A stretch of DNA of 64,000 nucleotides, taken from Nitrospinota bacterium (lineage in GTDB: Bacteria; Nitrospinota_A; UBA7883; JACRGQ01). The translations under genes were made by a program, and so were the position numbers. The stretch spans positions 128,087 to 192,086 of the forward strand of contig JAOUMJ010000002.1 in NCBI GenBank assembly GCA_029881495.1, given 5' to 3'. Below, one piece after another: positions 32,336-64,000 of the stretch. The notes under the pieces are model-generated. The model ran no database searches. It was not told the DNA's origin and was given only the letters and a program-made list of their open reading frames with translations. Position 1 is the first letter of the stretch, and the number at the start of each line of letters is the position of its first letter.

Positions 32336-34222
32336 GTGGGGAAGAGCAAAATATTTCACAAGTTTTTTTATCGGGTTCGTCTGGAAACCCTTGCCGTCCT
32401 TTTCGTGCTGTCCATAGCCGGATTGGCCGTATCGGGTCCATTTAGCGATAACTTGGCAACACCGGTTTACGCCAGCGAAGAGGCTGACGCGGGAGCCGGA
32501 GCGGATGCCGCAACAGCTGAGGGCGAGGCCGAAGCAGAGGATGACACAGTCTGGAAGCCGATGGCTGCTCCAATACTTGAAGCGAAGGATTATCCGGTAG
32601 TCAAGGGATGGAACAACCGCATTAGCGTCTGGATAGTCGCGCAACTTCATCTCTTTTTTGCCGCCTTTGTTCTTGGCGTTCCGATTTTCGTGTGGGTTAT
32701 CGAATTTATCGGAGTTACCACCAAGGATAAGCGGTACGACAACATGGCTCACGAGTTCATGAAGGTCGCAATGACGGGGTTCTCCCTGACGGCGAGCTTC
32801 GGCGGTGTTCTCGCGCTGATGCTTTTCAGCTTCTACCCTGATTTCATGGAATACATGACAAGCATATTCGGCAAGGTAATGATCTGGTACGGCCTTATGT
32901 TCTTTGCCGAGAGCTTCTTCGTTTATACCTACTATTACGGCTGGGATTCGATGCAGGACGAGAAGGGGAAAAAGATCCACCTCGTGCTTGGCCTTTTCCT
33001 TAATCTCTCAGGTATGACCCTTATGGTTATGTCCAATTCATGGGCTTCCTTCATGATGGCTCCGTCCGGAATTGAAGCCGACGGCACCTTCCAGGGGGAT
33101 GTGTGGGCAGTAATAACAGGACATCTCTGGAATCCGCTCAACCTTCACCGCTTCATCGCGAATATCGCTTACGGCGGTTCGCTTACGGCGGCGTACGCGG
33201 CATACAAGTATATTGCTACCAACAACCAGGAAGAGCGGGCGCATTATGACTGGATGGGCTACACCTCCTTCATTATCGCCATCATCGGGCTGCTTCCGCT
33301 CCCTTTCGCAGGCTACTGGCTTACGAAAGAGGTTTACGATTACTCTCAGCAGATGGGTATCACCCTGATGGGGGGCGTGTTCGCATGGCTCTTCATTATC
33401 CAGGCGGTTCTTATCGGCGCCATATTCCTGTCGGCAAACTACTACCTCTGGTGTAGCCTTTGCAGATCAAGCGGCTCACACAGGTATACAAAGCTTATAC
33501 AGCCGCTTGGTTTAATAATCGTATTCTCATTCCTGATCTGGTTTACGCCGCATACACTGGTTATGACCTCTACAGAACTGAGCCAGATAGGCGGTGCGCA
33601 TCACCCGGTACTTGGACCTCTTGGAGTTATGGCCGCGAAGAACGGAGCGGTTAACCTCCTTATTCTGGCGACTTTCGTAAGTTTCCAGATATTCAGAAGG
33701 AGTAACATCAAGGTAGTCGGGGACGACTACTGGGCGAAGAACGGAACCGCGATTCAGATAGGGCTTTACATCGCCGGCGCCGGAAATGTTCTCATACTGA
33801 GTGTTTACAGCTACTTTATTCCAGCCGCTACCCGTATCGGTCTTTCGATACCGCAGGTAGTTACAACTCTTATAGTCGTCATTGTGGCGATGATAATTGA
33901 CGGCAAGATGTTCAAAAAGACTGAAGATGTAGGAGAGGTTAGATGGGGCACAATGCCAATCCGCTCCCAATATGCGCTCTTCATGCTGGCGGCATCCTTC
34001 ACATGGCTGATGGGCCTGATGGGATATTGCCGGTCGGCTATTCGCCAACACTGGCACGTGTACACGATATTCAGGGATAACTCCCCGGATGCGTTTACCC
34101 CTACTCTGCCTTACGCGGCAGGTATGGTTACCGTAATATGCTGCATATTTATAGCATTGGTACTCTTTATGTTCTGGATGCCTATCCTTGCTTCGAAGAA
34201 AGGAGGGGCAAAACATGGTTAA
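32336..34222 (+). CDS. CydA-like membrane oxidase subunit ('bd-like oxidase')
   Basis: A 628-residue protein starting at GTG 32336, with an N-terminal helix, an acidic low-complexity loop (EEADAGAGADAATAEGEAEA, about 50-70) and about 12-14 membrane helices. CydA-like landmarks: QLHLFFAAFVLGVPIF near the first core helix, SNSWASFMMAPSG (the W..xPxG segment) and NLHRFIANIAYGGSL (heme His helix). CydB is absent. A later PHTLVMT and GGAHHPVLG (His422-His423) are unusual for CydA. This matches the bd-like oxidase described in Nitrospira, proposed to combine bd and heme-copper features. Five c-type cytochromes follow directly, so it may accept electrons from cytochrome c rather than quinol. Confidence 0.78.
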   Translation: MGKSKIFHKFFYRVRLETLAVLFVLSIAGLAVSGPFSDNLATPVYASEEADAGAGADAATAEGEAEAEDDTVWKPMAAPILEAKDYPVVKGWNNRISVWIVAQLHLFFAAFVLGVPIFVWVIEFIGVTTKDKRYDNMAHEFMKVAMTGFSLTASFGGVLALMLFSFYPDFMEYMTSIFGKVMIWYGLMFFAESFFVYTYYYGWDSMQDEKGKKIHLVLGLFLNLSGMTLMVMSNSWASFMMAPSGIEADGTFQGDVWAVITGHLWNPLNLHRFIANIAYGGSLTAAYAAYKYIATNNQEERAHYDWMGYTSFIIAIIGLLPLPFAGYWLTKEVYDYSQQMGITLMGGVFAWLFIIQAVLIGAIFLSANYYLWCSLCRSSGSHRYTKLIQPLGLIIVFSFLIWFTPHTLVMTSTELSQIGGAHHPVLGPLGVMAAKNGAVNLLILATFVSFQIFRRSNIKVVGDDYWAKNGTAIQIGLYIAGAGNVLILSVYSYFIPAATRIGLSIPQVVTTLIVVIVAMIIDGKMFKKTEDVGEVRWGTMPIRSQYALFMLAASFTWLMGLMGYCRSAIRQHWHVYTIFRDNSPDAFTPTLPYAAGMVTVICCIFIALVLFMFWMPILASKKGGAKHG

Positions 34223-35060
34223 TATACTTAAGATCGTAGCGTTCATGGTAGCGGTAATGGTCGCTTTCTCCGGGTACACAACCTATGGAATACCATTGAT
34301 CATTCCCGCTCCACCTCCAGTAGAGGAGAAGATAAGCGGCGATATGACGATGGATCAGTTCATAGCTCTTGGCGAAAAGATCTATAACGGAAAAGGCACA
34401 TGCACACTCTGCCACAACTCGCTCGGCAGGGCGCCGTTGCTCGAGCCGGTAGGAAGCGTTGCTACTGAGAGAATGGCGGATCCCAATTACAAGGGTAAGT
34501 CGAAGACCGTTGAGGAATATCTGCGTGAGTCGTTTGTTGATCCTTCCGCGTATGTCGTACCGGGATTTGGTAAAAAAGGGACGAACGATACGGTAAGCCC
34601 GATGCCGGACGTAAGCAAGGGCGCTATCAGTCTTTCCAATGTTGAAATGGACGCTGTCATCGGATACCTGCAGTCTATTGCCGGGGTTGAAGTAACCGTC
34701 AAGCTCCCGACAGGAGAAGACACAGCTGCAGCCGGTGGCGAGGATGAAGGTGGCGGTGAGATCAAACTCGCGGCCAATGCCAAGGAGGCATTCTCCAAGT
34801 TCGGTTGTGATGCCTGCCACATGGGGCCTGGAATAGCAGAAGGTGGCGACATGGGTCCTGACCTCTCAACGATGGGTAAGTCGGCAGGCACAAGGAAGAA
34901 GGGGATGTCAGCCGAGCAGTTCATCATCGAATCGATCATCGATCCCAATGCGGTTATTGCCGACGGGTTTGATGGAGAAATGATGCCCGACGATTTCGGG
35001 GACCAGATGACGGTCACGGAGCTTAACATGATGGTCAATGCCATACTGGGCAAGAAATAG
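34215..35060 (+). CDS. Membrane-anchored diheme cytochrome c
   Basis: A 281-residue protein. ATG 34215 has GGAGGGG 8 bases upstream and overlaps the oxidase stop by 8 bases. One N-terminal helix (about 5-30) anchors two cytochrome c domains: C63-TLCH67 with axial Met likely in VSPMPDVSKG, and C198-DACH202 with DGEMMPDDFG. A linker rich in Gly/Glu (ATAAGGEDEGGGE type) separates them. It likely passes electrons to or from the CydA-like subunit with which it is translationally coupled. Confidence 0.85.
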   Translation: MVNILKIVAFMVAVMVAFSGYTTYGIPLIIPAPPPVEEKISGDMTMDQFIALGEKIYNGKGTCTLCHNSLGRAPLLEPVGSVATERMADPNYKGKSKTVEEYLRESFVDPSAYVVPGFGKKGTNDTVSPMPDVSKGAISLSNVEMDAVIGYLQSIAGVEVTVKLPTGEDTAAAGGEDEGGGEIKLAANAKEAFSKFGCDACHMGPGIAEGGDMGPDLSTMGKSAGTRKKGMSAEQFIIESIIDPNAVIADGFDGEMMPDDFGDQMTVTELNMMVNAILGKK

Positions 35061-35077
35061 CGGGGGAGTAGACGAAA

Positions 35078-35857
35078 ATGAAATTTGTTAAGCCTTTGAT
35101 TGTAATTGTTGTCTGTTACTTGTTACTGAAAATAGGAATCCCGTTTATAGGTTCAATCCTTCATCCGGGAACATGGCCTGTGGTGCCGACCAGTGTCATG
35201 AAGATGTTCATGTTCTTCGTGGTTACCGGTACCCTCCTGATGTACAGTTTTGATGAGGAGGGTTACGCGGCCTTTGCAGATCCGATCCAGGATCTCTACT
35301 CGAATCCTGAAAAAACGAACGCAAAGTATGCCGTTATAGCAATAATCGGCATATTCGGCGCATACATCACTTACCAGTATGTAAAGCCGACGTTCGATGC
35401 TCCAGTTGAGCTTCGCTCCGTTCACCCCGCGCCTCCAGCTAACGCTAAGGCCTGGGGCAAGAGCTATGCTCTCCAGACTCTCAAAAATCCGTTAAGAGGG
35501 GATAAGGAGAATTTTGCCAAGAATATTGAAGCTGGCGGAGTAGTTTACTACCAGAACTGCTACTATTGCCACGGTGACAGGATGCTTGGGAAAGGGCCCT
35601 TTTTCTCAGGGTTCAATCCACTGCCGGCAAATTTTGTCGACATTGGTACGATCGCTCAGCTCACGGAATCTTTCGTGTTCTGGCGAATTGCCACGGGTGG
35701 ACCTGGCCTCCCTTCCGAGGGTGCGCCTTGGATATCGGCTATGCCGATATGGCATGATCTCCTGAGCGAAGAGGAAGTTTGGCAGGTTATTATGTTCATT
35801 TACGATTATACTGGTCACAATCCGCGCGTTACCACAGCAGTTGCGGAACATAAATGA
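35078..35857 (+). CDS. Membrane-anchored monoheme cytochrome c
   Basis: A 259-residue protein with two or three hydrophobic segments in residues 1-110 (VKPLIVIVVCYLLLKIGIPF; MKMFMFFVVTGTLLMYS; KYAVIAIIGIFGAYITY) and one heme c site C161-YYCH165 in a periplasmic C-terminal domain with ISAMPIWHDLLSEEEVWQVI, which supplies the axial Met. The topology resembles subunit FixO/CcoP-like or Nitrospira bd-like partner cytochromes. A GGGGGAG ribosome site precedes ATG 35078. Confidence 0.83.
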   Translation: MKFVKPLIVIVVCYLLLKIGIPFIGSILHPGTWPVVPTSVMKMFMFFVVTGTLLMYSFDEEGYAAFADPIQDLYSNPEKTNAKYAVIAIIGIFGAYITYQYVKPTFDAPVELRSVHPAPPANAKAWGKSYALQTLKNPLRGDKENFAKNIEAGGVVYYQNCYYCHGDRMLGKGPFFSGFNPLPANFVDIGTIAQLTESFVFWRIATGGPGLPSEGAPWISAMPIWHDLLSEEEVWQVIMFIYDYTGHNPRVTTAVAEHK

Positions 35858-35870
35858 TGGGTGAGGGAAG

Positions 35871-37418
35871 ATGATGTTGAATAGGATTAAAAAGATGAGA
35901 TTAAAGGAAGTCGTTTTATTTCTTGCGGCATTCATGTATTTTGCCGCGTCTTCCGCCTCTGCCGCTCCGGGTAACGCAGAAAACGGCAAGACGATATACA
36001 TGAAGAAATGCTGGTGGTGCCATGGAAAAGAGGGCGAGGCCGACGGTCCAGGCGCGGAATTCATGATTCCGCCACCGCGTGATTTCAGCCTTGGAATGTA
36101 CAAGTACAAGACAAGCACCGTAGACAGGGTAGTGGTCAGGGACGAAGATATCTTCGATATGATCACATACGGTATGCCTGGCACATCGATGCCGTCATGG
36201 AAAGAAGTTCTGAACGATCAGGAGAGGTGGGACCTCGTTGCGTTCGTCAAGTCGCTTACCGACATGTTCGAAGGCGCGGATAATCCCCCAGCACTCGACC
36301 TGAGCAAGAAAGTATCAAGCTCGGCAGACAGCATCGAAAAAGGGAAGAAGGCCTACGATGATGCGAAATGCTGGGAGTGTCACGGTAAAGAGGGAAAAGG
36401 CGACCTCATGAAAAAGCTGAAAGAGGATTCCGGTTCGCGCGTATGGCCTAGGAACTTAGCAAAACCTTGGACATTCCGCGTTAGCAACAATCCCGAGGAT
36501 ATATACGCCAGAGTGACGAACGGTATTCCGGGTACGCCGATGACATCCTTTGCCGCAGAGACAACCGGAAACGGAAAGCTCTCGGAAGAGGACAGGTGGC
36601 ACGTCTCCAACTACGTCGCTTCGCTTGCGGACCCGAACAGGGCTACAAAGCAGGGGCAGATAGTTGTAAAGGCTATCCAGACAGAAGCTCTCCCTGCGGA
36701 TGAGAATGATCCGGCATGGGAAGGCTTTGAAGGGACCGCTTATTTCCTCGTTCCGCAGATAATCGCTGCAGAGAGGTTCTTCATTCCTTCGAACGACCTC
36801 GTGATCGTAAAAGCCGCGTTTACCGAAAACGAGATAGCTTTCCTTCTTGAGATCGACGACAGGACAAAGAGCGTTCCCGGCAATTCGGACGCCGCTGCGA
36901 TAGCTTGGGGCAACCTGACGCCGGACGCGCTTGCGATACAGACTCCGGTCGTAATTCCGGATTCGGCTGAAAAACCGTATTTCGGACATGGCGATGCTTC
37001 GCACCCGGTTTCGATGCTCTACTGGAACAGCGGTTCCACTGAAAGCGGACAGATAGCAAAGATGATGACCACTACAGGCCTTGGCAAAATGGAAGCGAGC
37101 GATGTAGCCGCCGCAGGATTCACCGCCACCTCCACATATAATGCTGGAACCTGGAAGGTCATGATGAAGAGGAGCCTCGCTACGAATAATCCTGAAAAGG
37201 ATACTCAGTTCGTCGCCGGCAAGTACATCCCGATAGCGTTTGCGAACTGGGACGGCTCGAACGGCGAAGCAGGCTCGAAGCACACCATGACCACATGGTA
37301 CTGGCTGTTGCTCAAGCCCCAGACCGGAAGCTCGGTAGTCCTTCTTCCACTTGCAGTACTCTTGGTGCTGGTTGGCGGACAGGTCTGGATTTCCGGGCGT
37401 ATGAAGAATAAGGCGTAA
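35871..37418 (+). CDS. Diheme cytochrome c fused to an ethylbenzene-dehydrogenase-type heme b domain (NxrC-like)
   Basis: A 515-residue protein with signal peptide (to about residue 33). Two c-type domains carry C47-WWCH51 and C167-WECH171 with Met-bearing YGMPGTSMPSW and GIPGTPMTSF. Residues about 265-480 form an EB_dh domain like the gamma subunit of DMSO-reductase family type II enzymes (NxrC, EbdC, ClrC), which binds one heme b. AERFFIPSNDLVIVKAAFTENEIAFLLEI and YWLLLKPQTGSS lie in this part. A C-terminal helix (VVLLPLAVLLVLVGGQVWIS) anchors it. No alpha or beta molybdo-subunit is nearby, so it works here as an electron carrier with the oxidase cluster. Confidence 0.8.
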   Translation: MMLNRIKKMRLKEVVLFLAAFMYFAASSASAAPGNAENGKTIYMKKCWWCHGKEGEADGPGAEFMIPPPRDFSLGMYKYKTSTVDRVVVRDEDIFDMITYGMPGTSMPSWKEVLNDQERWDLVAFVKSLTDMFEGADNPPALDLSKKVSSSADSIEKGKKAYDDAKCWECHGKEGKGDLMKKLKEDSGSRVWPRNLAKPWTFRVSNNPEDIYARVTNGIPGTPMTSFAAETTGNGKLSEEDRWHVSNYVASLADPNRATKQGQIVVKAIQTEALPADENDPAWEGFEGTAYFLVPQIIAAERFFIPSNDLVIVKAAFTENEIAFLLEIDDRTKSVPGNSDAAAIAWGNLTPDALAIQTPVVIPDSAEKPYFGHGDASHPVSMLYWNSGSTESGQIAKMMTTTGLGKMEASDVAAAGFTATSTYNAGTWKVMMKRSLATNNPEKDTQFVAGKYIPIAFANWDGSNGEAGSKHTMTTWYWLLLKPQTGSSVVLLPLAVLLVLVGGQVWISGRMKNKA

Positions 37419-37454
37419 ATTAATTTTAAAAACGTGAAAGAGGAGGTTACTCGA

Positions 37455-38129
37455 GTGAACAGAATGATTGTTTTGTGCTGTCTCATGCTGGCAGTAATGT
37501 TCGGTACGTCAGCAATGGCGGCGGATGGAAAAGGCATCGTGGACAAGAACAAGTGTGGAAGCTGCCATAAAATGTCCGGCCCGGCTGTAAAGACCATCGC
37601 TGAAGTAATGAAAAGGAAAGCGCCGGATCTCTTTTATGCAGGTAGCAAGTTCAACAAGGATTGGCTGGTAGGATACCTCCAGAACCCGACCACTTTAAGG
37701 CCGGCTGGAACGGTTTACCTCAACAACATCACAACCGAAGGGGATACCGACAAGGTGAAAGGGGCGCCTGACAAATGCGCTTCCAAACTGAGCGCAGGCG
37801 ACGCAGCAGCAGCTGCCGACTACCTCATGACCCTCAAGGACAAGTCGATGAAGACCGGTGTTGCGAAGATCGGTGATTTTTCATCGGCAAGGGCGAAACT
37901 CCTTATGACAAAGGATAACGCCTGCAACGCGTGCCACGAACTTCCGAAAAAGGGGGGCGGTCTTTCCTGTCCGACATTCGACGGAATCGGCGCAAGGCTG
38001 AATCCCGACTGGATGTACAGCTTCATTCAGGACCCCACACACTGGGATCCGAGGGTATGGATGGCAAAAGGGACATTTGACGATGCCCAGTTGCAGTTGA
38101 TGGTCAATTACCTCTCCTCGCTTAAATAG
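37455..38129 (+). CDS. Periplasmic diheme cytochrome c
   Basis: A 224-residue protein. GTG 37455 is preferred over GTG 37434 because AGGAGG (37441-37446) lies 8 bases before it. The signal peptide ends near GTSAMAADGKG. Heme sites are C34-GSCH38 and C157-NACH161. The first domain shows AEVMKRKAPDLFYAGSKFNKDWLVGYLQNPTTLRPAG, a pattern of cytochromes of oxidase subunit II type. No membrane helix beyond the signal is seen, so it is soluble. It is the fourth cytochrome of the run. Confidence 0.83.
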   Translation: MNRMIVLCCLMLAVMFGTSAMAADGKGIVDKNKCGSCHKMSGPAVKTIAEVMKRKAPDLFYAGSKFNKDWLVGYLQNPTTLRPAGTVYLNNITTEGDTDKVKGAPDKCASKLSAGDAAAAADYLMTLKDKSMKTGVAKIGDFSSARAKLLMTKDNACNACHELPKKGGGLSCPTFDGIGARLNPDWMYSFIQDPTHWDPRVWMAKGTFDDAQLQLMVNYLSSLK

Positions 38130-41568: not shown

Positions 41569-42684
41569 ATGAGGAAAGTCACGAAACTTGTTTTCTTGAT
41601 GTTTCTGGCTCTTTCCGTAGGTGCGCTTGTCGCAACCGATGCGGATGCCAGGGAGAAGAAATCAGCGGCTGATTTGGAAAAGGCCAAAAAAGAGGGTGAT
41701 GCCTCTCAGGCTGAAGCCGACAAAGCCCGCGAATCATTCGGTCGCGAAGCAGACGAGTACAATATTGAGTCTTTCGAGACCAAGACCGACAAGAAGGGTT
41801 CCAGTGCGTCAACATACGGCGTTGCCGGGTTCGACTATCTTACAGGTGTAGGTAAAGTTGCATCTGACCCTGACAAAATCGGCGCAGATCTTCCAGCTGC
41901 TCTCGGCGGCGGAAAGCTCAAAGCAAAGCTAGACACACCTTTGAAAAAAATGATGTCAAAGCGCTTTAAGAACAAATGGACTGGCCAGCTTGGCGACACT
42001 GAATCTGGTCTTACAGAGAAATCAGGTGTTACCGAGGTTTGGTTCCGATCTGACAGCTCTTCCGAGCTTGGTGCAGGTTACAACGACTGGGTTAACCAGT
42101 GGAACGACATCACAAGGCCTAATACCAACGGTGTAACACTTGTTGCGGGTGCAGACCCGGATCAGGGCGCTCACTGGTTCTCGGTATACTGCGTCCATTG
42201 CCATGGCTGGACCGGTAAAGGTGACGGCCCAACGGCTGCTCCTCTTGATCCCCGCCCAAGGAACCTGACAAACGGTAAATACTCAAACTTCATTTCTAAC
42301 GTAGATATGTTCCAGGTAATCAAAGGCGGCGGCGCTGCAAGGAACCTTTCGGAAGCTATGCCTCCTTGGGGTAACATCATGCAGGATCAGGATATTTGGA
42401 ACACAGTTGCATTTATCAGGTCCCTTGCTGATAAACCTGCATTTGCTCCGGATCCAAGCGACGTAACAGCCGCTAACGCAAAGGACAGCGATGAGTTCAA
42501 GGAAATGAACGAAATGCTCGAACTTGCCGGCGCAATGGCTGGACGCGGTGGCGCAATGAAAGGTGGATACGACTCAATCGGTGGCGGACGCTTCTCTTCA
42601 AAGAAAGTCGGTATCGGCGGTGTTAAAACCTCCGGTCACGGCGGCGGTACTGCAAACACTGGTGACTGGGCTCTCGACAAGTAA
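41569..42684 (+). CDS. Large monoheme cytochrome c, probably abundant
   Basis: A 371-residue periplasmic protein: signal peptide to about residue 27 (ATDADA), a Lys/Glu/Ala-rich helical segment (about 28-62), an unknown middle domain (about 75-195), and a class I cytochrome c domain with C208-VHCH212 and axial Met in LSEAMPPWGNIMQDQ (about 195-290). The C-terminal 70 residues are Gly-rich and low complexity. Codon choice is clearly biased to a preferred set, and its own regulatory region and strong terminator surround it, so high single-gene expression is inferred. It may be the main periplasmic electron carrier. Confidence 0.83.
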   Translation: MRKVTKLVFLMFLALSVGALVATDADAREKKSAADLEKAKKEGDASQAEADKARESFGREADEYNIESFETKTDKKGSSASTYGVAGFDYLTGVGKVASDPDKIGADLPAALGGGKLKAKLDTPLKKMMSKRFKNKWTGQLGDTESGLTEKSGVTEVWFRSDSSSELGAGYNDWVNQWNDITRPNTNGVTLVAGADPDQGAHWFSVYCVHCHGWTGKGDGPTAAPLDPRPRNLTNGKYSNFISNVDMFQVIKGGGAARNLSEAMPPWGNIMQDQDIWNTVAFIRSLADKPAFAPDPSDVTAANAKDSDEFKEMNEMLELAGAMAGRGGAMKGGYDSIGGGRFSSKKVGIGGVKTSGHGGGTANTGDWALDK

Positions 42685-42710
42685 TTTAGCCCAATCTAAG
42701 CTTCAGATAT

Positions 42711-42744
42711 GGCTCCCCCTCTTAAGAGGGGGGGCCTTTTTTTT
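42711..42744 (+). terminator. Strong rho-independent terminator
   Basis: GGCTCCCCCTCTT and AAGAGGGGGGGCC form an almost perfect stem at 42711-42736, followed by eight T. It stands 27 bases after the cytochrome c stop. Confidence 0.92.
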
Positions 42745-42899
42745 GCTCAAATCACGGTTTTCCCCTGTTTGGTCAGATTTTTGCTTATTTTTAACACCTA
42801 TCTTGCAATTGTGTATCAACTGTTAGACAATGGTGCACTCTCAATTAGGGTAGGGGTTCAAATACTTGGTAGATTTTAAAAAGGGTAGGATGTTGAGTA

Positions 42900-43847
42900 A
42901 TGATTGAAGTAGAAAAGCTAACAAAAACCTACGGCGAGGCGCGGGGGATAAACGATGTCTCCTTTAATGTCGAAAAGGGTGAGATTGTCGGCTTTCTTGG
43001 ACCAAACGGAGCCGGGAAGACAACGACAATGCGAATCCTTACATGTTTTATGCCTGCCACAAGCGGTACGGCCCGCATTGCGGGTTACGATGTTTTCGAG
43101 GACTCCCTGAGCGTAAGGCGGAAGATAGGGTATCTGCCGGAAACGGTTCCTCTCTACACGGACATGCAGGTGCCCGACTACCTCCGGTTTGTCGCCGGTT
43201 TGAAGGGGATTCCCTGGAAAAGCATAAGTATGCGCGTTGCTGAGGTAATGGAGCAGGTAGGATTAACCCATATGGCTCACAAATTCATCGGTGAGCTTTC
43301 CAAGGGGTATCGGCAGAGGGTAGGCCTGGCACAGGCGCTTCTGAACGACCCGGAAGTGCTGATACTCGATGAGCCGACCATTGGCCTTGATCCAAGGCAG
43401 ATCATTGAAATCCGTTCACTGATAGGTGAACTGGGTAAACAGAGGACGATCATATTAAGCAGTCATATTCTCCCCGAGGTTAGCATGCTTTGCCAGAGGG
43501 TTATTATCATAGATGAAGGTCGCATCAAGGCGATGGATACGCCGGACAACCTGACATCACAGATGCACGCGGCAACAAGGGTGCAGACGAGGATTGCCGG
43601 TCCGCAAGAGAAAGTATTGGACGCCCTCAGGAAGCTGGGAGGCGTAAAGGTTGCCCAAATGTTAAGCGGAGGACCGGGAATAACCAACAACTATGTTGTC
43701 GAATTCAATAACGGCTTCGAGGGGGCCCATCTGATTGCAAAGCTGACAGCCGAGCAGAAGTGGGATCTCTACGAGCTTTCACCAATGAAAATGAGCCTTG
43801 AGGATATATTCATCCATATAGTCACTGAAGAAGGGGGGAAGCAGTGA
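42900..43847 (+). CDS. ABC transporter ATPase, GldA/NatA type
   Basis: A 315-residue ABC-2-type ATPase. P-loop GPNGAGKTTTMRIL, signature LSKGYRQRVGLAQALL, Walker B VLILDEPTIGLD and switch His in ILSSHILPE are all intact. The C-terminal extension (about 225-315) is typical for ABC-2 exporters. It is followed by a GldF-like permease (4-base overlap), a GldG-like protein and a DUF4340 protein. This four-gene set is found in many phyla and is best known from Bacteroidota gliding loci. The substrate is unknown. Confidence 0.88.
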   Translation: MIEVEKLTKTYGEARGINDVSFNVEKGEIVGFLGPNGAGKTTTMRILTCFMPATSGTARIAGYDVFEDSLSVRRKIGYLPETVPLYTDMQVPDYLRFVAGLKGIPWKSISMRVAEVMEQVGLTHMAHKFIGELSKGYRQRVGLAQALLNDPEVLILDEPTIGLDPRQIIEIRSLIGELGKQRTIILSSHILPEVSMLCQRVIIIDEGRIKAMDTPDNLTSQMHAATRVQTRIAGPQEKVLDALRKLGGVKVAQMLSGGPGITNNYVVEFNNGFEGAHLIAKLTAEQKWDLYELSPMKMSLEDIFIHIVTEEGGKQ

Positions 43848-44623
43848 GAAACTTCTTTTTCATACTCATGAAGGAGATCAGATCGTATTTCAATTCTCCG
43901 ATAGCCTTTGTGGTGATCACCATTTTTTCGATACTCACAGGGTACTACTTCTACAACATTTTCGCGTCATTCAGCACATTGAGTTTTCAGGCGCAGACAG
44001 ATCCGATGGTGGCAAATCAGTATGGGGCGCTGAACGTAACGGAATTTGTTATCCGGCCGTTCATCGGCACATTGAGCGGGGTCATGCTGATCATGTTGCC
44101 GATGCTTACCATGCGTGTTTTCTCGGAGGAGAAAAAGGCGGGAACGATTGAGCTACTCCTCACATTCCCGGTGAAGGATATTGAGGCGATAATGGGGAAA
44201 TTCATGGGTTGCATGGGGATCTTCATGATAATGCTGGTTCTTTCATTCCCAAGCATTTTGCTGGTCGAGTTCTTTGGTGATCCGGAATGGGGTGTGATAA
44301 TCACCGGGTATATCGGTCTTATACTGATGGGTTCGGCTTTCATTTCCCTTGGCGTTTTCATGTCTACTCTCACGGAAAACCAGATAATCGCCGCTGTGCT
44401 TACATTCTCGGCGCTGATGATCTTCTACGTGGTCAGTTATTCGACCAGCCTGGTTGGCGAGAGCTTGAGCAGAATACTTGAGTACCTGTCGTTCAATTAC
44501 CACATTGCGAATTTCGCAAAAGGGGTAATCGATACTTCAGACGTCGTCTACTATATCCTGTTCACCTTTTTCTTCCTTTTCCTCAGCATGCGTTCGCTTG
44601 AATCGAAAAGGTGGAGGGCATAA
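43844..44623 (+). CDS. ABC-2 permease, GldF-like
   Basis: A 259-residue permease with six membrane helices, starting at GTG 43844 with a 4-base overlap with the ATPase gene. The opening FILMKEIRSYFNSPIAFVVIT and MLTMRVFSEEKKAGTIELLLTFPV, the latter the ABC-2 cytoplasmic loop signature, mark the GldF/CcmB-like ABC-2 family. It is followed 2 bases later by the GldG-like gene. It forms the membrane part of the transporter with the upstream ATPase. Confidence 0.87.
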   Translation: MRNFFFILMKEIRSYFNSPIAFVVITIFSILTGYYFYNIFASFSTLSFQAQTDPMVANQYGALNVTEFVIRPFIGTLSGVMLIMLPMLTMRVFSEEKKAGTIELLLTFPVKDIEAIMGKFMGCMGIFMIMLVLSFPSILLVEFFGDPEWGVIITGYIGLILMGSAFISLGVFMSTLTENQIIAAVLTFSALMIFYVVSYSTSLVGESLSRILEYLSFNYHIANFAKGVIDTSDVVYYILFTFFFLFLSMRSLESKRWRA

Positions 44624-44625
44624 TC

Positions 44626-46197
44626 ATGAAAATACCGGCAGTACTGATACTTGGTTTACTTGGAATCGTATTTATAGCCACCGGGTTTGGAATTTACGCG
44701 ATAGGCGGAGCCATGAGCATTACAGCAGCCGGCCTTATCTGGGTCGGACTGATGCTTACGCTCTTTATCCTCTATGTCCGTTTCAATGAAGTAAAGAACA
44801 TCCTTGGCAGCAAGAGCACTAAATACGGCGCGAACATGGTTGTGATGGTTGCGGTTTTCGCGGCGGTGACGGTTTTTGCCGCGGTGCTGGGCGAGACGCA
44901 CAAGAAGAGGGTTGATCTTACAAAAACCGGAAGGTTCACTCTTTCCACACAAACCAAAAAGATACTTCAATCGCTGAGCACCCCTGTGAAGGCGGTTGCG
45001 TTTTACCGAAATGAATCGGGTTCTCAGCATGCGCAACAGAGGTTGAAGATGCGCGACATACTTGAGGAGTACGCAAGCATTTCAGACAATTTCACATTCA
45101 CCTTTATCGACCCGGACAGAAACCCGGGGCTTGCATCAAAATACGGGGTGTCCGAATACCGGATAACGCTCCTTATGTCAGGCGATAAACAGATAAAGAT
45201 AGGAAATGAGCAGGAGGAGAAGCTGACAAACGGACTCATCAAGCTTTTGAGAGAAAAGCGGAAGGTAGTCTATTTTGTAAAGGGCCACGGCGAAAAGGAT
45301 ATAAGCTCTCCCGGTAAGGAGGGGTACCGTGCCGCCGCGGAAGCGATTATCAATGACAATTATGAAGTGAAGGATATCATGCTTCTCAGGCAGGATGAGG
45401 TTCCGGATGACGCCTCTGTGGTCGTTATCGCAAGTCCTGACAGGGATATGGCGGAGCCTGAACTTGAAAAGCTGACGAGATATTACCAAAGAGGTGGCGC
45501 GATTCTCGCCGAGGTTGATCCCGGGCATCCGCCAGGATACAGGACATGGCTAGAGAGCTTTGGTTTCAAGCTCCAGACCGATGTAATTATCGACCAGCAG
45601 AGCCAGCTGTATGGCGCGAACCACCTTACACCTGTTGTTTATGCCTATCACATCAAACATCCACTCACCAAGGACTTCAAGCTCGCTTCGTATTTCCCGA
45701 TAGCGAATTCGGTATATATAGAGGAAGACCCGAAGCTCGGAAGGTATCAATTGGCTCTTACAGGCCCGAACTCATGGACAGAGACGGACAAGAACCAGCT
45801 TGAATCGGGACAGGCGGAATATGACGAGGACAGGGAGAAGCGCGGTCCTATACCGGTGATGTCCGTAGCCACATTTGCCGCAAAGGGGGAAGTGGATGAG
45901 GAAGGCAACACTAGGGACAAGTACGGCAAAATTATAGCGATCGGCGATTCCGATTTCGCGAATAACACGAACATCAATCTTGCCGGAAATGGCGACCTCT
46001 TTTTGAATACCATTAGCTGGCTGGCGGAAGAAGCCGACCTGATAGCAGTCCGCGCAAAGAAATCCACCATGACGCCGGTTGTGCTGACGGCCGCGCAGGG
46101 GAGGGCGATTTTCTGGATACCGACGATTATGGTCCCTTCGATCGTATTGATGGCCGGATTGGGTATATATAGCCGCAGACGATGGTTCAGGCAATGA
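44626..46197 (+). CDS. GldG-like ABC auxiliary protein (DUF4350/ABC_transp_aux)
   Basis: A 523-residue protein. ATG 44626 is preferred over ATG 44611, since GGAGGG (44612-44617) lies 8 bases before it. Three N-terminal helices (about 5-95) precede a large periplasmic region with FTLSTQTKKILQSLSTPVKAVAFYRNESGS and the glutamine-amidotransferase-like KVVYFVKGHGEKDISSP. A C-terminal helix ends the protein (IPTIMVPSIVLMAGLGIY). This is the GldG auxiliary subunit that accompanies GldA and GldF. Its exact role is unknown. Confidence 0.85.
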   Translation: MKIPAVLILGLLGIVFIATGFGIYAIGGAMSITAAGLIWVGLMLTLFILYVRFNEVKNILGSKSTKYGANMVVMVAVFAAVTVFAAVLGETHKKRVDLTKTGRFTLSTQTKKILQSLSTPVKAVAFYRNESGSQHAQQRLKMRDILEEYASISDNFTFTFIDPDRNPGLASKYGVSEYRITLLMSGDKQIKIGNEQEEKLTNGLIKLLREKRKVVYFVKGHGEKDISSPGKEGYRAAAEAIINDNYEVKDIMLLRQDEVPDDASVVVIASPDRDMAEPELEKLTRYYQRGGAILAEVDPGHPPGYRTWLESFGFKLQTDVIIDQQSQLYGANHLTPVVYAYHIKHPLTKDFKLASYFPIANSVYIEEDPKLGRYQLALTGPNSWTETDKNQLESGQAEYDEDREKRGPIPVMSVATFAAKGEVDEEGNTRDKYGKIIAIGDSDFANNTNINLAGNGDLFLNTISWLAEEADLIAVRAKKSTMTPVVLTAAQGRAIFWIPTIMVPSIVLMAGLGIYSRRRWFRQ

Positions 46198-51546: not shown

Positions 51547-52359
51547 ATGTCCAGAACACTCTTTAGGATTGTTGTATTCAATTTATTTTTGTTGTCCTGT
51601 CTTTTAGGGAAGATCGACCATGCGTCGGCAGGGAGTAATCCCAAGGATATGGTACTTGTGCCGGAGGGTGAGTTTGTAAAGGGGAGCACCGATGATGAGG
51701 TCAGTAAACTGAAAAAAATGTATGGCGAAAGGGAAATTTACAAACTATACCCCTTCGACAAAGAGGTGCCGGCAAAAAAGGTATACCTGAAATCGTTCTA
51801 TATTGACAGGCATGAAGTTACAAACAGGGAATATGAAAAGTTCGTAAAGGAAACGAACTATCCCCCACCCTTGAACTGGGAAGAGGGAACATTTGCATCC
51901 GGTAAAGGGGATTTTCCCGTTCTATACGTTTCGCGGACAGACGCCATGAAATATGCAAAATGGGCAGGGAAGAGACTCCCTACTGAAGATGAATGGGAAA
52001 AAGCATCGCGGGGCACCGATGGACGCGTCTACCCATGGGGCAATACTTTTGATCCGTACAAATCCGTGACTGCCGAATCAGATTTGAAATTTCTCCTTGG
52101 AGCGCTTTGTGAATTTGGGACCGCAAACAAGATCGAACTTGCGCCTGGGGATGTCAGTCCGTTCGGAGTTCATGATATGGCCGGAAACGTGAGGGAATGG
52201 ACCGCCACATTGGAGATGGCTGATTCCGAAAAGGCCGTTGTAAAAGGGGGTTCCTGGCTGGATTTGTCGGTTAACGCGAGAGCCGCTCACAGGGAAATAA
52301 TTCCCGGCGACTCGGTCAGTCATATTATAGGGTTCAGGTGCGCGAAGGATGTTGAATAG
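51547..52359 (+). CDS. SUMF1/FGE-like exported protein, second copy
   Basis: A 270-residue protein with signal peptide (to about residue 28). The SUMF1 domain is complete: MVLVPEGEFVKGSTDDE, KSFYIDRHEVTNREYEKFV, DFPVLYVSRTDAMKYAKWAGKRLPTEDEWEKASRG, YPWGNTFDP, FGVHDMAGNVREWT, VKGGSWLDL, GFRCAKD. It lies 1 base after the LivK-type gene, so the two form one operon. It may bind a ligand or modify a partner, rather than act on sulfatases, since none is present. Confidence 0.83.
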   Translation: MSRTLFRIVVFNLFLLSCLLGKIDHASAGSNPKDMVLVPEGEFVKGSTDDEVSKLKKMYGEREIYKLYPFDKEVPAKKVYLKSFYIDRHEVTNREYEKFVKETNYPPPLNWEEGTFASGKGDFPVLYVSRTDAMKYAKWAGKRLPTEDEWEKASRGTDGRVYPWGNTFDPYKSVTAESDLKFLLGALCEFGTANKIELAPGDVSPFGVHDMAGNVREWTATLEMADSEKAVVKGGSWLDLSVNARAAHREIIPGDSVSHIIGFRCAKDVE

Positions 52360-58893: not shown

Positions 58894-58952
58894 TCTTTAA
58901 GGGAACACAGTACTAGTAGTGAAAAAAGTTAACTTAAAAAGGGGGTGAGATG

Positions 58953-59381
58953 GTGAAAAAATTAAGTATTCTTGGTGCAATGGTTTTTGCAGTTACTTTA
59001 GCTGTAACAGCTTTTGCCGCAAAACCAGCTATAGCTAGGGTTCTTGGTGGTGGTTCAGCCATAACAGATACTCTGCAGATAGGTGAGATTACAAGCATCG
59101 GAAACAAGCAGTTGACGATAGCTACCCAGTTCGAAGAGAAATCAAAAACCTATACTTTGGACCTGTTACCGAATTGTTATGTTATGACCGCTTCACGAGG
59201 CGAGTTCAAGAAATTCTCTGAGCTCAAAAAGGGTGACCTTGTTGCTGCGTACGGATGGTACAAAGGTGGCAAGTGGAACGCTGTAAGGATAGACATTCTT
59301 GATAAGAATGACTACCTCGTAAAGAGATTGGCTGCTGATGCGAAAGCAAAAGTGTATTACAAACATGAGAACGTAAAATAA
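58953..59381 (+). CDS. Small exported protein preceding the NosZ-like gene
   Basis: A 142-residue protein. GTG 58953 (MKKLSILGAMVFAVTLAVTA) is favoured over ATG 58950, as GGGGGTG at 58941-58947 is too near the ATG. The mature part is small and beta-rich: LQIGEITSIGNKQLTIATQFEEKSKTYTLDLLPNCYVM then FKKFSELKKGDLVAAYGWYKGGKWNAVRIDIL, an OB-like pattern as in DUF5666-type proteins. It has one Cys, no heme site, and no lipobox. It lies 22 bases before the NosZ-like gene and shares its biased codon use, so it is probably made in quantity with it and may serve as its partner or metal carrier. Confidence 0.6.
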   Translation: MKKLSILGAMVFAVTLAVTAFAAKPAIARVLGGGSAITDTLQIGEITSIGNKQLTIATQFEEKSKTYTLDLLPNCYVMTASRGEFKKFSELKKGDLVAAYGWYKGGKWNAVRIDILDKNDYLVKRLAADAKAKVYYKHENVK

Positions 59382-59403
59382 AAATTTGAGGGGGTGAGTG
59401 ACT

Positions 59404-61203
59404 TTGAAAAAATATGTTGCCTATTTTATGGCGATAGCTGTTGCGTCCGTGTTTTCATGGAGCACAACGGCAGAAGCTAAAAAAGTAGTGCTGACCGAGT
59501 TTGATAAACGCGATTGGCACGTAACAGAAGGCCAGGATAACGACTCCCCGTTACGCGACTACGCAATTCTTTATGATGCGGGTGGTGTTGACGGTGCTCT
59601 GGGCGTTATCGGTATACCTTCAATGAGGACCTACAGGCACATCAGGTGTGGTGTTGACTTGCACAACTTCCCATTTTCGGGATCAAACGCAGGTAACAAC
59701 AACGGTACTCCGGACGGTAAATATCTCTATGTTTCCGATAAGGGTTCCGACACAATTGCCGAGGTAAACCTGCAGACAGGTTGGGTTGAGAGAATTTTCG
59801 CTCTGCCGAAACCTTTTGGTATCCATCACAGTGCGGCTCTTGCACCGAACGGTAAATACCTCTTCGCAACTGGAGAGCTTACCGGTAAAATGCTCAAGCT
59901 TCGCCTTGAAGATGGCGCTACCACAGTTCTTGATATTCCGCCTGCACCTAGCGCACCGGACTATCCTGACACCAGCAAAGATGGTAAATACGTTTTCTCC
60001 GGAAACTATTATCACTCGGCTATTATGGTGTTCAGCCAGGATCCCTTTAAGCTTATTAAAGAGATTCCAGTTGGTAAGAACCCACACGGTACGAACGTAA
60101 GCCCGACAAACAGGATCGTAGCAGTCTGCGATAAACTCTCAGCTACCATTTCGGTTATCGACGTGGAACAGCTCAGGGTCGCAAAAGTTATTCCTGTTGG
60201 TGCGGGTCCGCTTCACAACCAGTTCGACACGCTTGGAAAGTACGACTACATTTCCTGCTTCGTGTCTGACTCTACTTCGAAACTCGATATGCAGAGAATG
60301 CAGTTGGTTGACGAGTTCCCGATTCACTACCGCGTTGGTCACAACTCAATAGCTCCTGACAACGGGTACTATGTTTCGCAGAACAAGTTCTCCACCGGTC
60401 TCTTTACTCCGACCGGTATCGTTTTCGCAGTTAACTTCGAGCTTCAGGATATCGACGAGTCTTCCGACACATACGGTAAGTCCGTTAAGATCATCCCTGT
60501 TGACGGCGAGCCGCATGAAGGAAGGATGATTTTCGCATCCTACATTCAGAGGTGGAACACCGGTAAGGGCGAAGAGCTCTTCTCGAAAGGTTATAACCTT
60601 GGTGACTACCATGTAAGCTTTGATGTTGGACCTGGTGTCAACAGCAAAACAAGGCCTCAGCTTGAGCCTGCTCACTGGAAAAACACCAAGAAATACTGGA
60701 TCGCAAGGGATAACGGTAAACCTGGTATAACAAAAGAAGGCGATGTTCATGTTATTCGCATAAAAGCCTTCTCATACGGTTATGTTCCAAGGTTTATCCA
60801 CGTTCCTCAGGGCGCGAAAGTCCGCATAATCTTCACAAACATCGACAAAGCGGCCGGTCTTACAAAGAACCCGGACGTTACGATGGGTATGGCAATATAC
60901 GGTCACTACGGCTTCAGGACCATGATCATTGGTCCTCGCGGTATGTCGGCTGTTGCCGAGTTTGAAGCAGATAGAGCGGGCGAGTACGAGTTCTACTGCC
61001 AGCACTTCTGTGGTCCGTTGCACCTTGAGATGCGCGGTACCTTCTTCGTTGATCCGAAAGGAAAACAGGCTTCTCTTGCAGTTGGTGACTACGACCGCGT
61101 AGCACAGCAGGAACAGCTGGTAGACGAGGGAGAGCGCGAGTGGCTTGTTGGTACAAACAGGCTCCTTAACAAGCTCAAAGAGGGTAACGAACCCACCATA
61201 TAG
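59404..61203 (+). CDS. Divergent nitrous-oxide-reductase-like copper protein (beta-propeller plus CuA cupredoxin)
   Basis: A 599-residue protein with a Sec signal (to about residue 24, TTAEAKK; no twin Arg). TTG 59404 fits the GAGGGGGTG ribosome site better than GTG 59398. Residues about 60-440 form a YVTN/lactonase-like propeller (DGKYLYVSDKGSDTIAEVNLQTG). Histidines match NosZ CuZ positions: H87 in DLHNF, H141 in GIHHSA, H228 in NPHGTNVSP, H271 in GPLHNQFD, H313 in VGHNS, H371 in GEPHEG. The C-terminal cupredoxin has CuA ligands H501, C532, C536, H540, M543 (C-x3-C-x3-H-x2-M). The usual His-His pair is His-Asn at 87-88, though H142 could supply a seventh ligand. It is about 40 residues shorter than common NosZ. 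Probably reduces N2O, but another substrate is possible. Confidence 0.75.
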   Translation: MKKYVAYFMAIAVASVFSWSTTAEAKKVVLTEFDKRDWHVTEGQDNDSPLRDYAILYDAGGVDGALGVIGIPSMRTYRHIRCGVDLHNFPFSGSNAGNNNGTPDGKYLYVSDKGSDTIAEVNLQTGWVERIFALPKPFGIHHSAALAPNGKYLFATGELTGKMLKLRLEDGATTVLDIPPAPSAPDYPDTSKDGKYVFSGNYYHSAIMVFSQDPFKLIKEIPVGKNPHGTNVSPTNRIVAVCDKLSATISVIDVEQLRVAKVIPVGAGPLHNQFDTLGKYDYISCFVSDSTSKLDMQRMQLVDEFPIHYRVGHNSIAPDNGYYVSQNKFSTGLFTPTGIVFAVNFELQDIDESSDTYGKSVKIIPVDGEPHEGRMIFASYIQRWNTGKGEELFSKGYNLGDYHVSFDVGPGVNSKTRPQLEPAHWKNTKKYWIARDNGKPGITKEGDVHVIRIKAFSYGYVPRFIHVPQGAKVRIIFTNIDKAAGLTKNPDVTMGMAIYGHYGFRTMIIGPRGMSAVAEFEADRAGEYEFYCQHFCGPLHLEMRGTFFVDPKGKQASLAVGDYDRVAQQEQLVDEGEREWLVGTNRLLNKLKEGNEPTI

Positions 61204-61289: not shown

Positions 61290-61793
61290 ATGAAATCTTC
61301 GGTACGGATAATTTGCGCGATCCTGATGGTCGCGGTGTATATAGGATGCTCCGGCAAAAAAGCCAGTTCCATGCCTGCAACTCCGCCAGATCAGGTTGTA
61401 CTGCATTTTTATGACCTGTTAAAGGATGGTGGCAAGATCGCGAACAGGGAGGCCTTCAATATGGTCAGCACCAAGTACCGAGGGCTTGATCCGAATGATT
61501 TCAGGAAGTGGACCGATACCTACAACAGGGATTCAAAAATCTCTATTATGGAGACCGTTGTCCCGGTTGCTCCGGATTCAAAAGGGGATATGGTCGCAAA
61601 GGTTATTATGGAAGTACAGACGCCATCAACTTTTGGCGATTACTTTTCCACTACGAGTAATGTCAATCTCATACTTGACAAGGATTCAAACGAATGGAAG
61701 ATAGACTTCATGGCGGATACCATCGATGAATCCGAATATCTGAATGCGCCCGCAGAGGCGAATTCCCCGGATGGGGAGAACCAGGAACAATAA
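61290..61793 (+). CDS. NTF2/DUF4878-like lipoprotein of the b/c module
   Basis: A 167-residue lipoprotein with lipobox VYIGCSGKK. The mature part PPDQVVLHFYDLLKDGGKIANREAFNMVSTKY and NVNLILDKDSNEWKIDFMAD has the long first helix and final beta strands of NTF2-like/DUF4878 lipoproteins. It stands in the same position relative to cytochrome b as the NTF2-like gene at 38.7 kb does to its fused relative. Its stop is 1 base before the cytochrome b ATG. Function is unknown; likely helps build or link the complex. Confidence 0.65.
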   Translation: MKSSVRIICAILMVAVYIGCSGKKASSMPATPPDQVVLHFYDLLKDGGKIANREAFNMVSTKYRGLDPNDFRKWTDTYNRDSKISIMETVVPVAPDSKGDMVAKVIMEVQTPSTFGDYFSTTSNVNLILDKDSNEWKIDFMADTIDESEYLNAPAEANSPDGENQEQ

Positions 61794-61794
61794 A

Positions 61795-62430
61795 ATGATG
61801 AATAAAGTTATTGATTGGCTGGATGTAAGACTTGGAGTAAAGGGATTCTATAAAGAACATATCGAATACTCTTTGCCTGAGAGCGCCAGCTTTTGGCACC
61901 TGTTCGGCGGACTAACGATCGGCTGTATTATAATTCAGGTTATTACCGGTTTTTACATGACAATGTACTACGTTCCGGTTCCAGAACTGGCTCATGAGAG
62001 CATAAAAACCATGTGCAATACCACAACATTTGGCGCGCTGTTTCGTAACGTGCATCGATACAGTTCTACTGCGGGGATATTCTTTCTGTTTATCCATGCG
62101 ATACACGTTATGTCACGTCGCGCTTACCGCGCTCCACGCGAGCTTACATGGTGGGTTGGGATCATTCTTGCCGGCCTCTTTATTCTTCTCCTTATTTCCG
62201 GGATCATCGTTCCCTGGGATTGGAGAAGCTACTGGGAACTTATCATCTGGGCAGACTGGATCGACAGCATTCCGCTTATTGGCGACAGCCTTAAGGGATT
62301 GGTCCTCTCAAGCTTTACACTTGGCAGAAACTACGCCGTCCATATCATTTTATTGCCGGTGGTGCTGTTTTTCTTTCTGCTGATCCACATAGTGCTTGTC
62401 CGCAAACTGGGGTTGTCAGATCGCGCGTAA
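61795..62430 (+). CDS. Cytochrome b (split form, N-terminal part of bc-type complex)
   Basis: A 211-residue cytochrome b6-type protein. ATG 61795 (or 61798) follows CAGGAAC; an upstream in-frame ATG (61744) lies in the lipoprotein gene. An amphipathic start WLDVRLGVKGFYKEHIEYSLPESASFWHLFGGL leads to four helices. Heme ligands are in NVHRYSSTAGIFFLFIHAIHV and NYAVHIILLPVVLFFFLLIH. GWxxSGIIxPWDW-like LLLISGIIVPWDWRSYWEL is typical. It pairs with the next gene, which supplies subunit IV and heme c. It probably oxidises quinol for the copper enzyme upstream. Confidence 0.9.
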   Translation: MMNKVIDWLDVRLGVKGFYKEHIEYSLPESASFWHLFGGLTIGCIIIQVITGFYMTMYYVPVPELAHESIKTMCNTTTFGALFRNVHRYSSTAGIFFLFIHAIHVMSRRAYRAPRELTWWVGIILAGLFILLLISGIIVPWDWRSYWELIIWADWIDSIPLIGDSLKGLVLSSFTLGRNYAVHIILLPVVLFFFLLIHIVLVRKLGLSDRA

Positions 62431-62470
62431 ACGCGCTTGTTAATCTGAAAAAAATGGAGATTGTAAGATA

Positions 62471-63193
62471 ATGTTTTGGGGAAGAAAAGATGCAAAATGG
62501 TGGCCGCACTATCTGCTGACGCTGTCAGGAGTGATGGTTGTGGTGCTCATCATAGTCAGCTTGCTTGCGACTTTATATCCGGTGCCGGATGATGCTCCTA
62601 TGGTCATACCTATGCCGGATGACGGGGAAAATGTTCCAGGGCCTGAATGGGTTTTCCTCCTTTTCTGGATGCCGTTCTGGTATTTCAAGGGGAGGATGAA
62701 AAAGTACCTCGTGTTCATGACAGTAATACCGATTCTAGCTCTTATTTTCTTTATTCTACTTCCATATCTGGACAAGCTTCCGCTTGCGAAATATTTAGGG
62801 AAAATTCCGAAGTTGAACAGTTTTATGGAAAGTGCCAAACAGCTTCCAAAAGGGATAAAGAGAAGCTTTATTTACGGGATCCCGGCGTTGGCGTTTGCCC
62901 TCGTCCTTGGATTCAGTTTTGTTGCTACGGGACATCAGGCGAAGATACTTGGTTGTGATTCGTGCCACAATCCCGCCATGGGACACAGAATGGCGATACC
63001 GCCAATTGATGTTTTCAACTACTATATGGTCGATAGAGCGAGGCAGATCGGCGTCGGCAAATACAGGGCCGGCAAGGAAAGTCTCGAAGGGAATTCAGGA
63101 AGATTTTTTCAGGATACTGGAGACACCGAGGGTGGGTACAAGGACGCAAACTGGCAAATGAGGCATATGTATGAACCAACCTTCACCTGGTAG
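62471..63193 (+). CDS. Subunit IV-like/monoheme cytochrome c protein of the b/c complex
   Basis: A 240-residue protein with three membrane helices (about 14-36, 80-97, 138-155). The first periplasmic loop has PGPEWVFLLFWMPFWYF, a PEWY-type quinol-site motif with V for Y. After the last helix comes C162-DSCH166 in GCDSCHNPAMGHRMAIPP, a short heme c site with likely His or Met ligand near by. The C-terminus MRHMYEPTFTW repeats that of the fused protein at 39.4 kb. Together with the upstream cytochrome b it forms a Rieske-less b/c module. Confidence 0.85.
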   Translation: MFWGRKDAKWWPHYLLTLSGVMVVVLIIVSLLATLYPVPDDAPMVIPMPDDGENVPGPEWVFLLFWMPFWYFKGRMKKYLVFMTVIPILALIFFILLPYLDKLPLAKYLGKIPKLNSFMESAKQLPKGIKRSFIYGIPALAFALVLGFSFVATGHQAKILGCDSCHNPAMGHRMAIPPIDVFNYYMVDRARQIGVGKYRAGKESLEGNSGRFFQDTGDTEGGYKDANWQMRHMYEPTFTW

Positions 63194-64000
63194 CAGGGTG
63201 GGACGAATCGCAAAAACTGTTATTGCTCAGGCTCTTCTGGTTTTGTTATTGGTCTCCGTGCCAACGGCACACAGCGCGAATAATGACAATGAGAGGTTGA
63301 GCGGAGTTGTTGCGCCCAAAATCACTATTGTTGAACCGTCAAAATCGTCTACGGCGCCTGATGTTTTCGAGTACCGTATTCCCACAAAATACAGCATGCC
63401 GACAGGTCTTGCCGTTGATTCCAAAGACAGGGTATGGTTTACCGAAATGGCAGGAAATTCCGTAGGGGTGCTAACTCCCGGAACAAATGAGATCAAGGAG
63501 TACAGGATACCTTCCACGAAGGATCTCCCTTCTTCGGAGTGGGAATACAATCAGGAGGTGAAAGATTCTCCAATTGAATCTCTTAATGTATACAGTGTCG
63601 GAAGCCCCGGCAATCTGATTGTCGGCAAGAACGATATAATCTGGTTTGTTACTCATCTCGGCAACAGCATTGTTCGTTTCGAGCCGGACAAGGAGGAGTT
63701 TACCGAGTTTATTCTCCCTACTGAAGACGCTAGACCGTATGACCTTGCCGAAGATTCAAAGGGGAATATCTGGTTCGTTGAGAAGAATGGGGGAAAACTC
63801 GCCCGCCTTGATTTTGAAAAGAAAAAGATCGTCGAGATTAGGCTTGAGCAAGGGGTCAATCTCATGGGGATGGTAATAGACAAGGACGACAACGTATGGA
63901 TTGGCGACGTTTCCGGGAACTATCTGGCGCGATATAATCCAACAGAAAAAAAGCTGAGGAGATTCCCGATCGGCATTCCTCAGGCACAGCCCGGAAATAT
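63171..64000 (+). CDS. Vgb/NHL-like periplasmic beta-propeller (runs off right edge)
   Basis: The frame is open from ATG 63171 to the edge (276 codons). ATG 63171 overlaps the cytochrome gene by 23 bases, with AGG 7 bases upstream; GTG 63198 is the alternative. A signal peptide (VIAQALLVLLLVSVPTAHSA) is followed by propeller repeats PTGLAVDSKDRVWFTEMAGNS, PYDLAEDSKGNIWFVEKNGGK and MGMVIDKDDNVWIGDVSGNY. They resemble virginiamycin B lyase, but the export signal and place after a cytochrome b/c module make antibiotic inactivation unlikely. It may be a docking or accessory protein of the N2O/b-c system. Confidence 0.72.
   Translation, partial: MNQPSPGSRVGRIAKTVIAQALLVLLLVSVPTAHSANNDNERLSGVVAPKITIVEPSKSSTAPDVFEYRIPTKYSMPTGLAVDSKDRVWFTEMAGNSVGVLTPGTNEIKEYRIPSTKDLPSSEWEYNQEVKDSPIESLNVYSVGSPGNLIVGKNDIIWFVTHLGNSIVRFEPDKEEFTEFILPTEDARPYDLAEDSKGNIWFVEKNGGKLARLDFEKKKIVEIRLEQGVNLMGMVIDKDDNVWIGDVSGNYLARYNPTEKKLRRFPIGIPQAQPGN

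Follow-up and report, generated by a model that had tools for sequence, protein, structure and literature searches.

Does the phylum Nitrospinota encode a nitrous oxide reductase? This enzyme is the only one known to reduce N2O to N2 (PMC13122619), and a 2024 comparative study reported nosZ to be absent from all its Nitrospinota genomes (PMC10839748). The literature now includes a clade III, or lactonase-type, NosZ, for which PMC13122619 cites He et al. 2025. The question is raised by a gene in a 64,000-nucleotide stretch of a Nitrospinota genome (the window), in which a first-pass annotation, made from the letters alone, recognized a highly divergent N2O reductase with an altered set of CuZ histidines.

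Gene and domain architecture

The gene of interest lies near the end of the window:

59398..61203, + strand: L-NosZ-like gene, 601 aa, with signal peptide, lactonase-type propeller and C-terminal cupredoxin domain (NF052460, nos_propeller, tree, dN/dS)

Two starts are possible, GTG at 59398 and TTG at 59404, and a ribosome-site-like sequence just 5' of the reading frame, GGGGGTGA, fits either. Residues are counted here from the GTG; the first-pass annotation counted from the TTG, so 2 must be added to its numbers. The protein carries a Sec-type signal and no twin-arginine signal. Pfam matches to Lactonase (1.5e-18), nos_propeller (36.4 bits, cut-off 30) and Cupredoxin_1 confirm the proposed fusion of a lactonase-like propeller to a cupredoxin domain, and CoxB matches the CuA loop (E 8e-4).

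Among the nitrous oxide reductase models, NF052460 (L-NosZ, the clade III lactonase-type enzyme) gives the highest score, with 609 bits and an E-value of 4.1e-183, below its curated equivalog cut-off of 700 bits. TIGR04246 (clade II) and TIGR04244 (clade I) reach 178 and 131 bits, both below their cut-off of 625. Between close relatives, dN/dS is 0.07-0.11, so the gene is maintained by purifying selection. An AlphaFold2 model built with 22 Nitrospinota sequences has a mean pLDDT of 53.6 and is of low confidence across much of the ligand region; the top 50 Foldseek matches to this low-confidence model are all NosZ, with a TM-score of about 0.38.

Phylogeny and distribution

Clade III lactonase-type N2O reductase (L-NosZ) is reportedly the subject of He et al., Nature 2025;646:152-160. 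In a tree of 53 proteins, the window protein groups with proteins over the 700-bit cut-off, and this clade III is split from clades I and II with 100/100 support on a branch of 3.35. The Nitrospinota proteins form one clade (100/99), and L-NosZ of another phylum (96/95) is its sister, a term that holds relative to the sample since the tree was midpoint-rooted; the tree is read here for these groups and gives no order among clades I, II and III. Branches within clades I and II are long, and certain joins that involve clade III members were flagged as well. Mean identity between the Nitrospinota and other-phylum members of clade III is 54%, and that of clade III to clades I and II about 28%. The first-pass annotation had suggested such a tree and had proposed that the protein belongs to the lactonase-type N2O reductases or represents a further branch. 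Each of the two proposals is supported: the protein is clade III by phylogeny and belongs to a Nitrospinota branch of its own that scores below the naming cut-off.

Of 24 Nitrospinota genomes, 16 carry full-length homologs, which score 576-614 bits against NF052460. Beyond this phylum, about 265 genomes were sampled throughout the domain, and a single one gave a full-length match. In the class reached from that match (the class of genome G304), 14 of 63 genomes carry the gene; 13 of the encoded proteins are full-length, at 658-779 bits, and one is a fragment. Five of these members pass 700 bits and nine, the fragment included, fall below; locus L055 of this other phylum, at 779 bits, is over the cut-off. 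Because other-phylum members also fall below it, 700 bits marks neither a natural gap nor a sharp functional line. Annotation based on this cut-off would miss the gene in all 16 Nitrospinota genomes and nine of the 14 matches in the other class (related loci, L054-L068). Among viral contigs, no relative was found. The plasmids searched hold no close relative; the matches listed are about 25% identical, and the annotated ones are TAT-dependent NosZ.

The source genome is 2.8 Mb in size and 97% complete. Its 72 contigs and estimated contamination of 2.7% would allow for a gene brought in by contamination or misassembly of the metagenome-assembled genome. This explanation is vanishingly improbable, for the gene sits on a 197 kb contig and recurs with its neighbors in 16 of the 24 Nitrospinota genomes, as well as in named MAGs of the phylum from several projects. 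Six MAGs named in PMC10839748, matched here by MAG name, carry it: NC_59_16 (L053), nNGHbin12 (L037), NC_41_11 (L045), NC_50_18 (L046), NC_39_30 (L049) and UBA9963 (L050). That study placed MAG NC_..._59_16 (L053) in class UBA7883 (PMC10839748). The source genome probably belongs to this class too, as L008, a locus from a member of its family, equals L053 in score and length. In our reading, the gene went unrecognized before clade III was described. The published absence of nosZ, set beside the gene in six of the named MAGs, means that the role of Nitrospinota in N2O turnover needs re-examination.

Copper-ligand positions

The ligand alignment comprised 23 Nitrospinota proteins, 15 other clade III proteins and 15 of clades I and II. 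The relevant positions are as follows:

59662..59667, + strand: H89-N90, CuZ His129 kept and second histidine of the pair replaced by Asn (alignment)
59824..59829, + strand: H143-H144, equivalent of CuZ His178 plus an extra histidine (alignment)
60085..60087, + strand: H230, CuZ ligand, His326 equivalent (invariant, 53/53)
60214..60216, + strand: H273, CuZ ligand, His382 equivalent (invariant, 53/53)
60340..60342, + strand: H315, CuZ ligand, His433 equivalent (invariant, 53/53)
60514..60516, + strand: H373, CuZ ligand, His494 equivalent (invariant, 53/53)
60883..60885, + strand: M496, which aligns with the CuA gate histidine His583 (alignment and hhalign)
60997..61032, + strand: CuA loop C534, C538, H542, M545 (CQHFCGPLHLEM), with Cys, Cys, His and Met invariant in 53/53

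Residues H89, H143, H230, H273, H315 and H373 occupy columns that are histidine in all 53 proteins. Profile-profile alignment of clade III against clades I and II (hhalign, 100%, E 1.5e-62, 450 columns) also brings these six positions and the CuA loop into register, in agreement with the first-pass claim of six propeller histidines in the order of the NosZ CuZ ligands. Such agreement goes well past what chance would give. The alignment to ligand columns would fit a meeting of these histidines in one pocket. Seven CuZ histidines characterize the NosZ superfamily, two of them consecutive in blade II, and only six are kept here. The predicted His-Asn at the N-terminal pair and His-His at the next site are found at 89-90 and 143-144. 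Column 90 is Asn in 23/23 Nitrospinota proteins, Glu in 15/15 other clade III proteins and His in 15/15 of clades I and II, and column 144, which is His in all 38 clade III proteins, holds Gly, Ala or Ser in those of clades I and II. The altered histidine set is therefore real but not peculiar to this protein: with H144 fixed in 38/38 and column 90 never histidine, it marks the sampled clade III. Asn90 alone is particular to the Nitrospinota branch. The large insert between the second and third ligands is indeed missing, with 87 residues in this stretch versus 143 to 170 in clade I and II examples.

At the CuA site, with its two Cys, two His and one Met, four of the five side-chain ligands are kept, and the first histidine is Met496. 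The column of P. stutzeri His583 is Met in 38/38 clade III proteins and His in 15/15 of clades I and II, an assignment also given by the separate hhalign comparison. This CuA histidine flips in and out and is a proposed gatekeeper (PMC11573801). The exact CuA spacing that had been claimed is correct for C534, C538, H542 and M545; the histidine assigned to the site, H501 (H503 in the present numbering), is not conserved, being Tyr in 19 of 23 Nitrospinota proteins and Pro in all 15 other clade III proteins, and was rejected as a ligand. A histidine does occupy the CuA Trp position. It is not diagnostic and was set aside as a special feature, because the position is mostly Asp, Glu or Asn in clade II and His, Gln or Thr in clade III. 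Cytochrome c oxidase subunit II has the same CuA loop in its CuA domain; the present protein differs in its fusion to a propeller and in the change of the first CuA His to Met.

Generic propeller models, namely Lactonase, YNCE, Cytochrom_D1 and hydrazine synthase beta, score on the same blades, as they would on a cupredoxin-propeller fusion outside the N2O reductases that merely resembles NosZ. Such an origin was already disfavored and is very improbable given the six CuZ histidine columns, the CuA loop and the hhalign match over 450 columns, together with a nos_propeller score above its cut-off and the placement in the tree.

Gene neighborhood

The flanking genes of the window are:

58950..59381, + strand: NF052405, 'NOV5WD8W family nitrogen cycling protein', a small protein with export signal, encoded immediately 5' of L-NosZ (218.6 bits, cut-off 170)
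61290..61793, + strand: small putative lipoprotein (homolog just downstream of L-NosZ in relatives)
61744..62430, + strand: membrane protein of the cytochrome b6 type, whose real start is probably close to 61795 (Pfam Cytochrome_B 3.8e-33; conserved neighbor)
62471..63193, + strand: membrane protein with one CXXCH heme motif, likely a subunit IV-like partner of the cytochrome b (from sequence; neighbor in both phyla)
63171..64000, + strand: Vgb-like propeller protein with C-terminal membrane anchor, continuing beyond the window end (Vgb_lyase 3.9e-27)

The order NF052405, L-NosZ, lipoprotein, cytochrome b is seen in 19 Nitrospinota loci, followed, where the contig reaches, by a cytochrome c-type subunit, two Vgb-like propellers and an MFS/spermidine-synthase-like protein. 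Just 3' of L-NosZ, the lipoprotein gene is present in 19/19 Nitrospinota and 14/15 other-phylum loci, and a cytochrome b gene also follows L-NosZ in nine of the 15 latter loci. A second Vgb-like gene follows in locus L032, and paired Vgb-like genes also stand 3' of other-phylum L-NosZ. Lipoprotein, cytochrome b, cytochrome c and Vgb-like genes are thus common to both phyla and define the conserved neighborhood of clade III. NF052405 adjoins L-NosZ in all 16 Nitrospinota genomes that carry the latter and is found in exactly these 16 of the 24. It was not found in the 63 genomes of the G304 class, where the model had no control match, though it matched the 16 Nitrospinota genomes.

Two further groups of genes, roughly 13-27 kb upstream of L-NosZ, are possible members of the cluster:

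41569..46197, + strand: c-type cytochrome, ABC ATPase, ABC permease and GldG-like protein (homologs 3' of L-NosZ in L088)
32336..38129, + strand: cytochrome bd-like protein, c-type cytochromes and type II DMSO-reductase gamma-like protein (Cyt_bd_oxida_I, Cytochrome_CBB3, TIGR03477)

Homologs of both groups surround L-NosZ at locus L088 of G304, where cytochrome bd-like, c-type cytochrome and DMSO-reductase gamma-like genes precede it and a GldA/GldF/GldG-like ABC system follows. The matches to L088 reach 174 bits for the c-type cytochrome, 386 for the ABC ATPase, 319 for the permease and 290 for the GldG-like protein. GldG is matched by the window protein, and the L088 ATPase and permease resemble GldA and GldF below cut-off.

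FNR-like matches, examined for a site upstream of L-NosZ, number 40 in the window versus 43 expected, which is no more than background. Large fused MFS/spermidine-synthase-like proteins (55789-58593 in the window and 7630-10566 in L032) flank the operon in many Nitrospinota.

Genes of copper-site assembly and denitrification were also searched for. NosL was found in none of the 24 Nitrospinota genomes by a family search whose positive controls matched. NosD over cut-off was likewise found in none of the 24, a weaker result as no control genome passed the cut-off either. Copper-site assembly would then depend on factors other than these two. For the earlier denitrification genes, a search with NirK at E 1e-30 gave no match in the source genome and matches in eight of the 24 genomes of the phylum. 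norBC is reported to be absent in Nitrospinota (PMC10839748). Taken together, these NirK and norBC findings suggest that the organism may be a non-denitrifying N2O scavenger, which would reduce N2O without the preceding steps of denitrification.

Relation to known systems

The protein resembles clade III L-NosZ (NF052460) in its full-length alignment, six CuZ histidines, extra histidine by the second ligand site, Met at the CuA gate position and downstream genes in common with L055. It differs from other clade III proteins in having Asn, not Glu, after the first CuZ histidine, and from those over the cut-off in the 576-614 bits of its branch versus 700 bits and in the private upstream NF052405. 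With the Sec-dependent NosZ of clade II (TIGR04246), it shares six of seven CuZ histidines, the Cys-Cys-His-Met CuA loop, Sec-type export and a non-Trp residue at the CuA Trp position. Differences from clade II include an identity of 28%, loss of the His-His pair, Met for His583, a shorter stretch between the second and third ligands, and a locus in a phylum without NosL and with no NosD over cut-off. The TAT-dependent NosZ of clade I (TIGR04244) has the same two-domain plan and ligand order; relative to it, identity is 27.5%, the twin-arginine signal is lacking and the ligand losses are those seen against clade II.

Proposed function and mechanism

On this evidence, the gene product is probably exported to the periplasm and an enzyme within the clade III (lactonase-type) lineage of N2O reductases, on a branch found here only in Nitrospinota. 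The phylum may therefore be an overlooked sink for the greenhouse gas nitrous oxide. The evidence for family, neighborhood and ligand pattern is good, and the activity we infer. Quinol electrons would pass to the co-encoded cytochrome b and c proteins and from these cytochromes to the cupredoxin domain, with its predicted dinuclear site of the CuA kind. They would then reach the hub of the propeller, whose predicted CuZ-like copper-sulfide cluster would reduce N2O to N2 and water. H144 may substitute for the second blade II histidine, which is lost; the gate His583 may have been replaced by Met496 or by no side chain at all. The GldA/GldF/GldG-like ABC system may have a role in assembly.

Several observations count against this assignment. 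The proteins of all 16 Nitrospinota genomes fall below the curated L-NosZ cut-off, the CuA gate histidine is Met, NosL is absent, NosD is not over cut-off and the structural model is of low confidence. P. stutzeri NosZ was no longer metalated when any one of six of its seven CuZ histidines was replaced (PMC11573801), and one of the seven is missing from clade III. Given this loss and the Met in place of the gate histidine, the sites of clade III are either rebuilt or different in their chemistry. We prefer the former, in which the CuZ and CuA sites would have been rebuilt.

The Nitrospinota branch could instead represent a NosZ-derived copper-sulfide enzyme that no longer reduces N2O and has another role, such as turnover of NO or of sulfur compounds, or the handling of copper, with Asn90 as the mark of the change. 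The fixed Asn90 in 23/23 Nitrospinota proteins versus Glu in 15/15 others, scores that are all below the equivalog cut-off, and the private partner gene NF052405 would fit such a shift. The remaining ligand positions, the neighborhood and the propeller/CuA architecture nevertheless match those of other-phylum L-NosZ, whose members also fall below 700 bits, a cut-off that draws no sharp functional line. We therefore regard a changed function as unlikely and retain N2O reduction as the preferred assignment.

A bolder proposal, to which we give rather less than an even chance, is that clade III, and Nitrospinota most of all, reduces N2O with re-engineered copper sites, in which a histidine elsewhere replaces the blade II pair and CuA works without its gate histidine. 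If so, features held essential in textbook NosZ would be dispensable, and the non-nitrifying Nitrospinota would be N2O sinks. The ligand positions given above make it testable how CuZ- and CuA-type sites work when each is without a histidine that is invariant in the sampled clades I and II.

Additional features of the window

The gene at 39420-40568 encodes another cytochrome b6-like protein, in fusion with a part that is subunit IV-like and carries CXXCH. It is paralogous in plan to the genes at 61744-63193, and homologs lie near four other-phylum L-NosZ loci. The radical SAM protein at 21460-23295 resembles the heme enzymes NirJ2/AhbD, and its C-terminus matches the end of protochlorophyllide-reductase subunit B. 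By eye, the proteins at 49451-50104 and 51547-52359 are SUMF1/formylglycine-enzyme-like, and they adjoin a branched-chain amino-acid binding-like protein.
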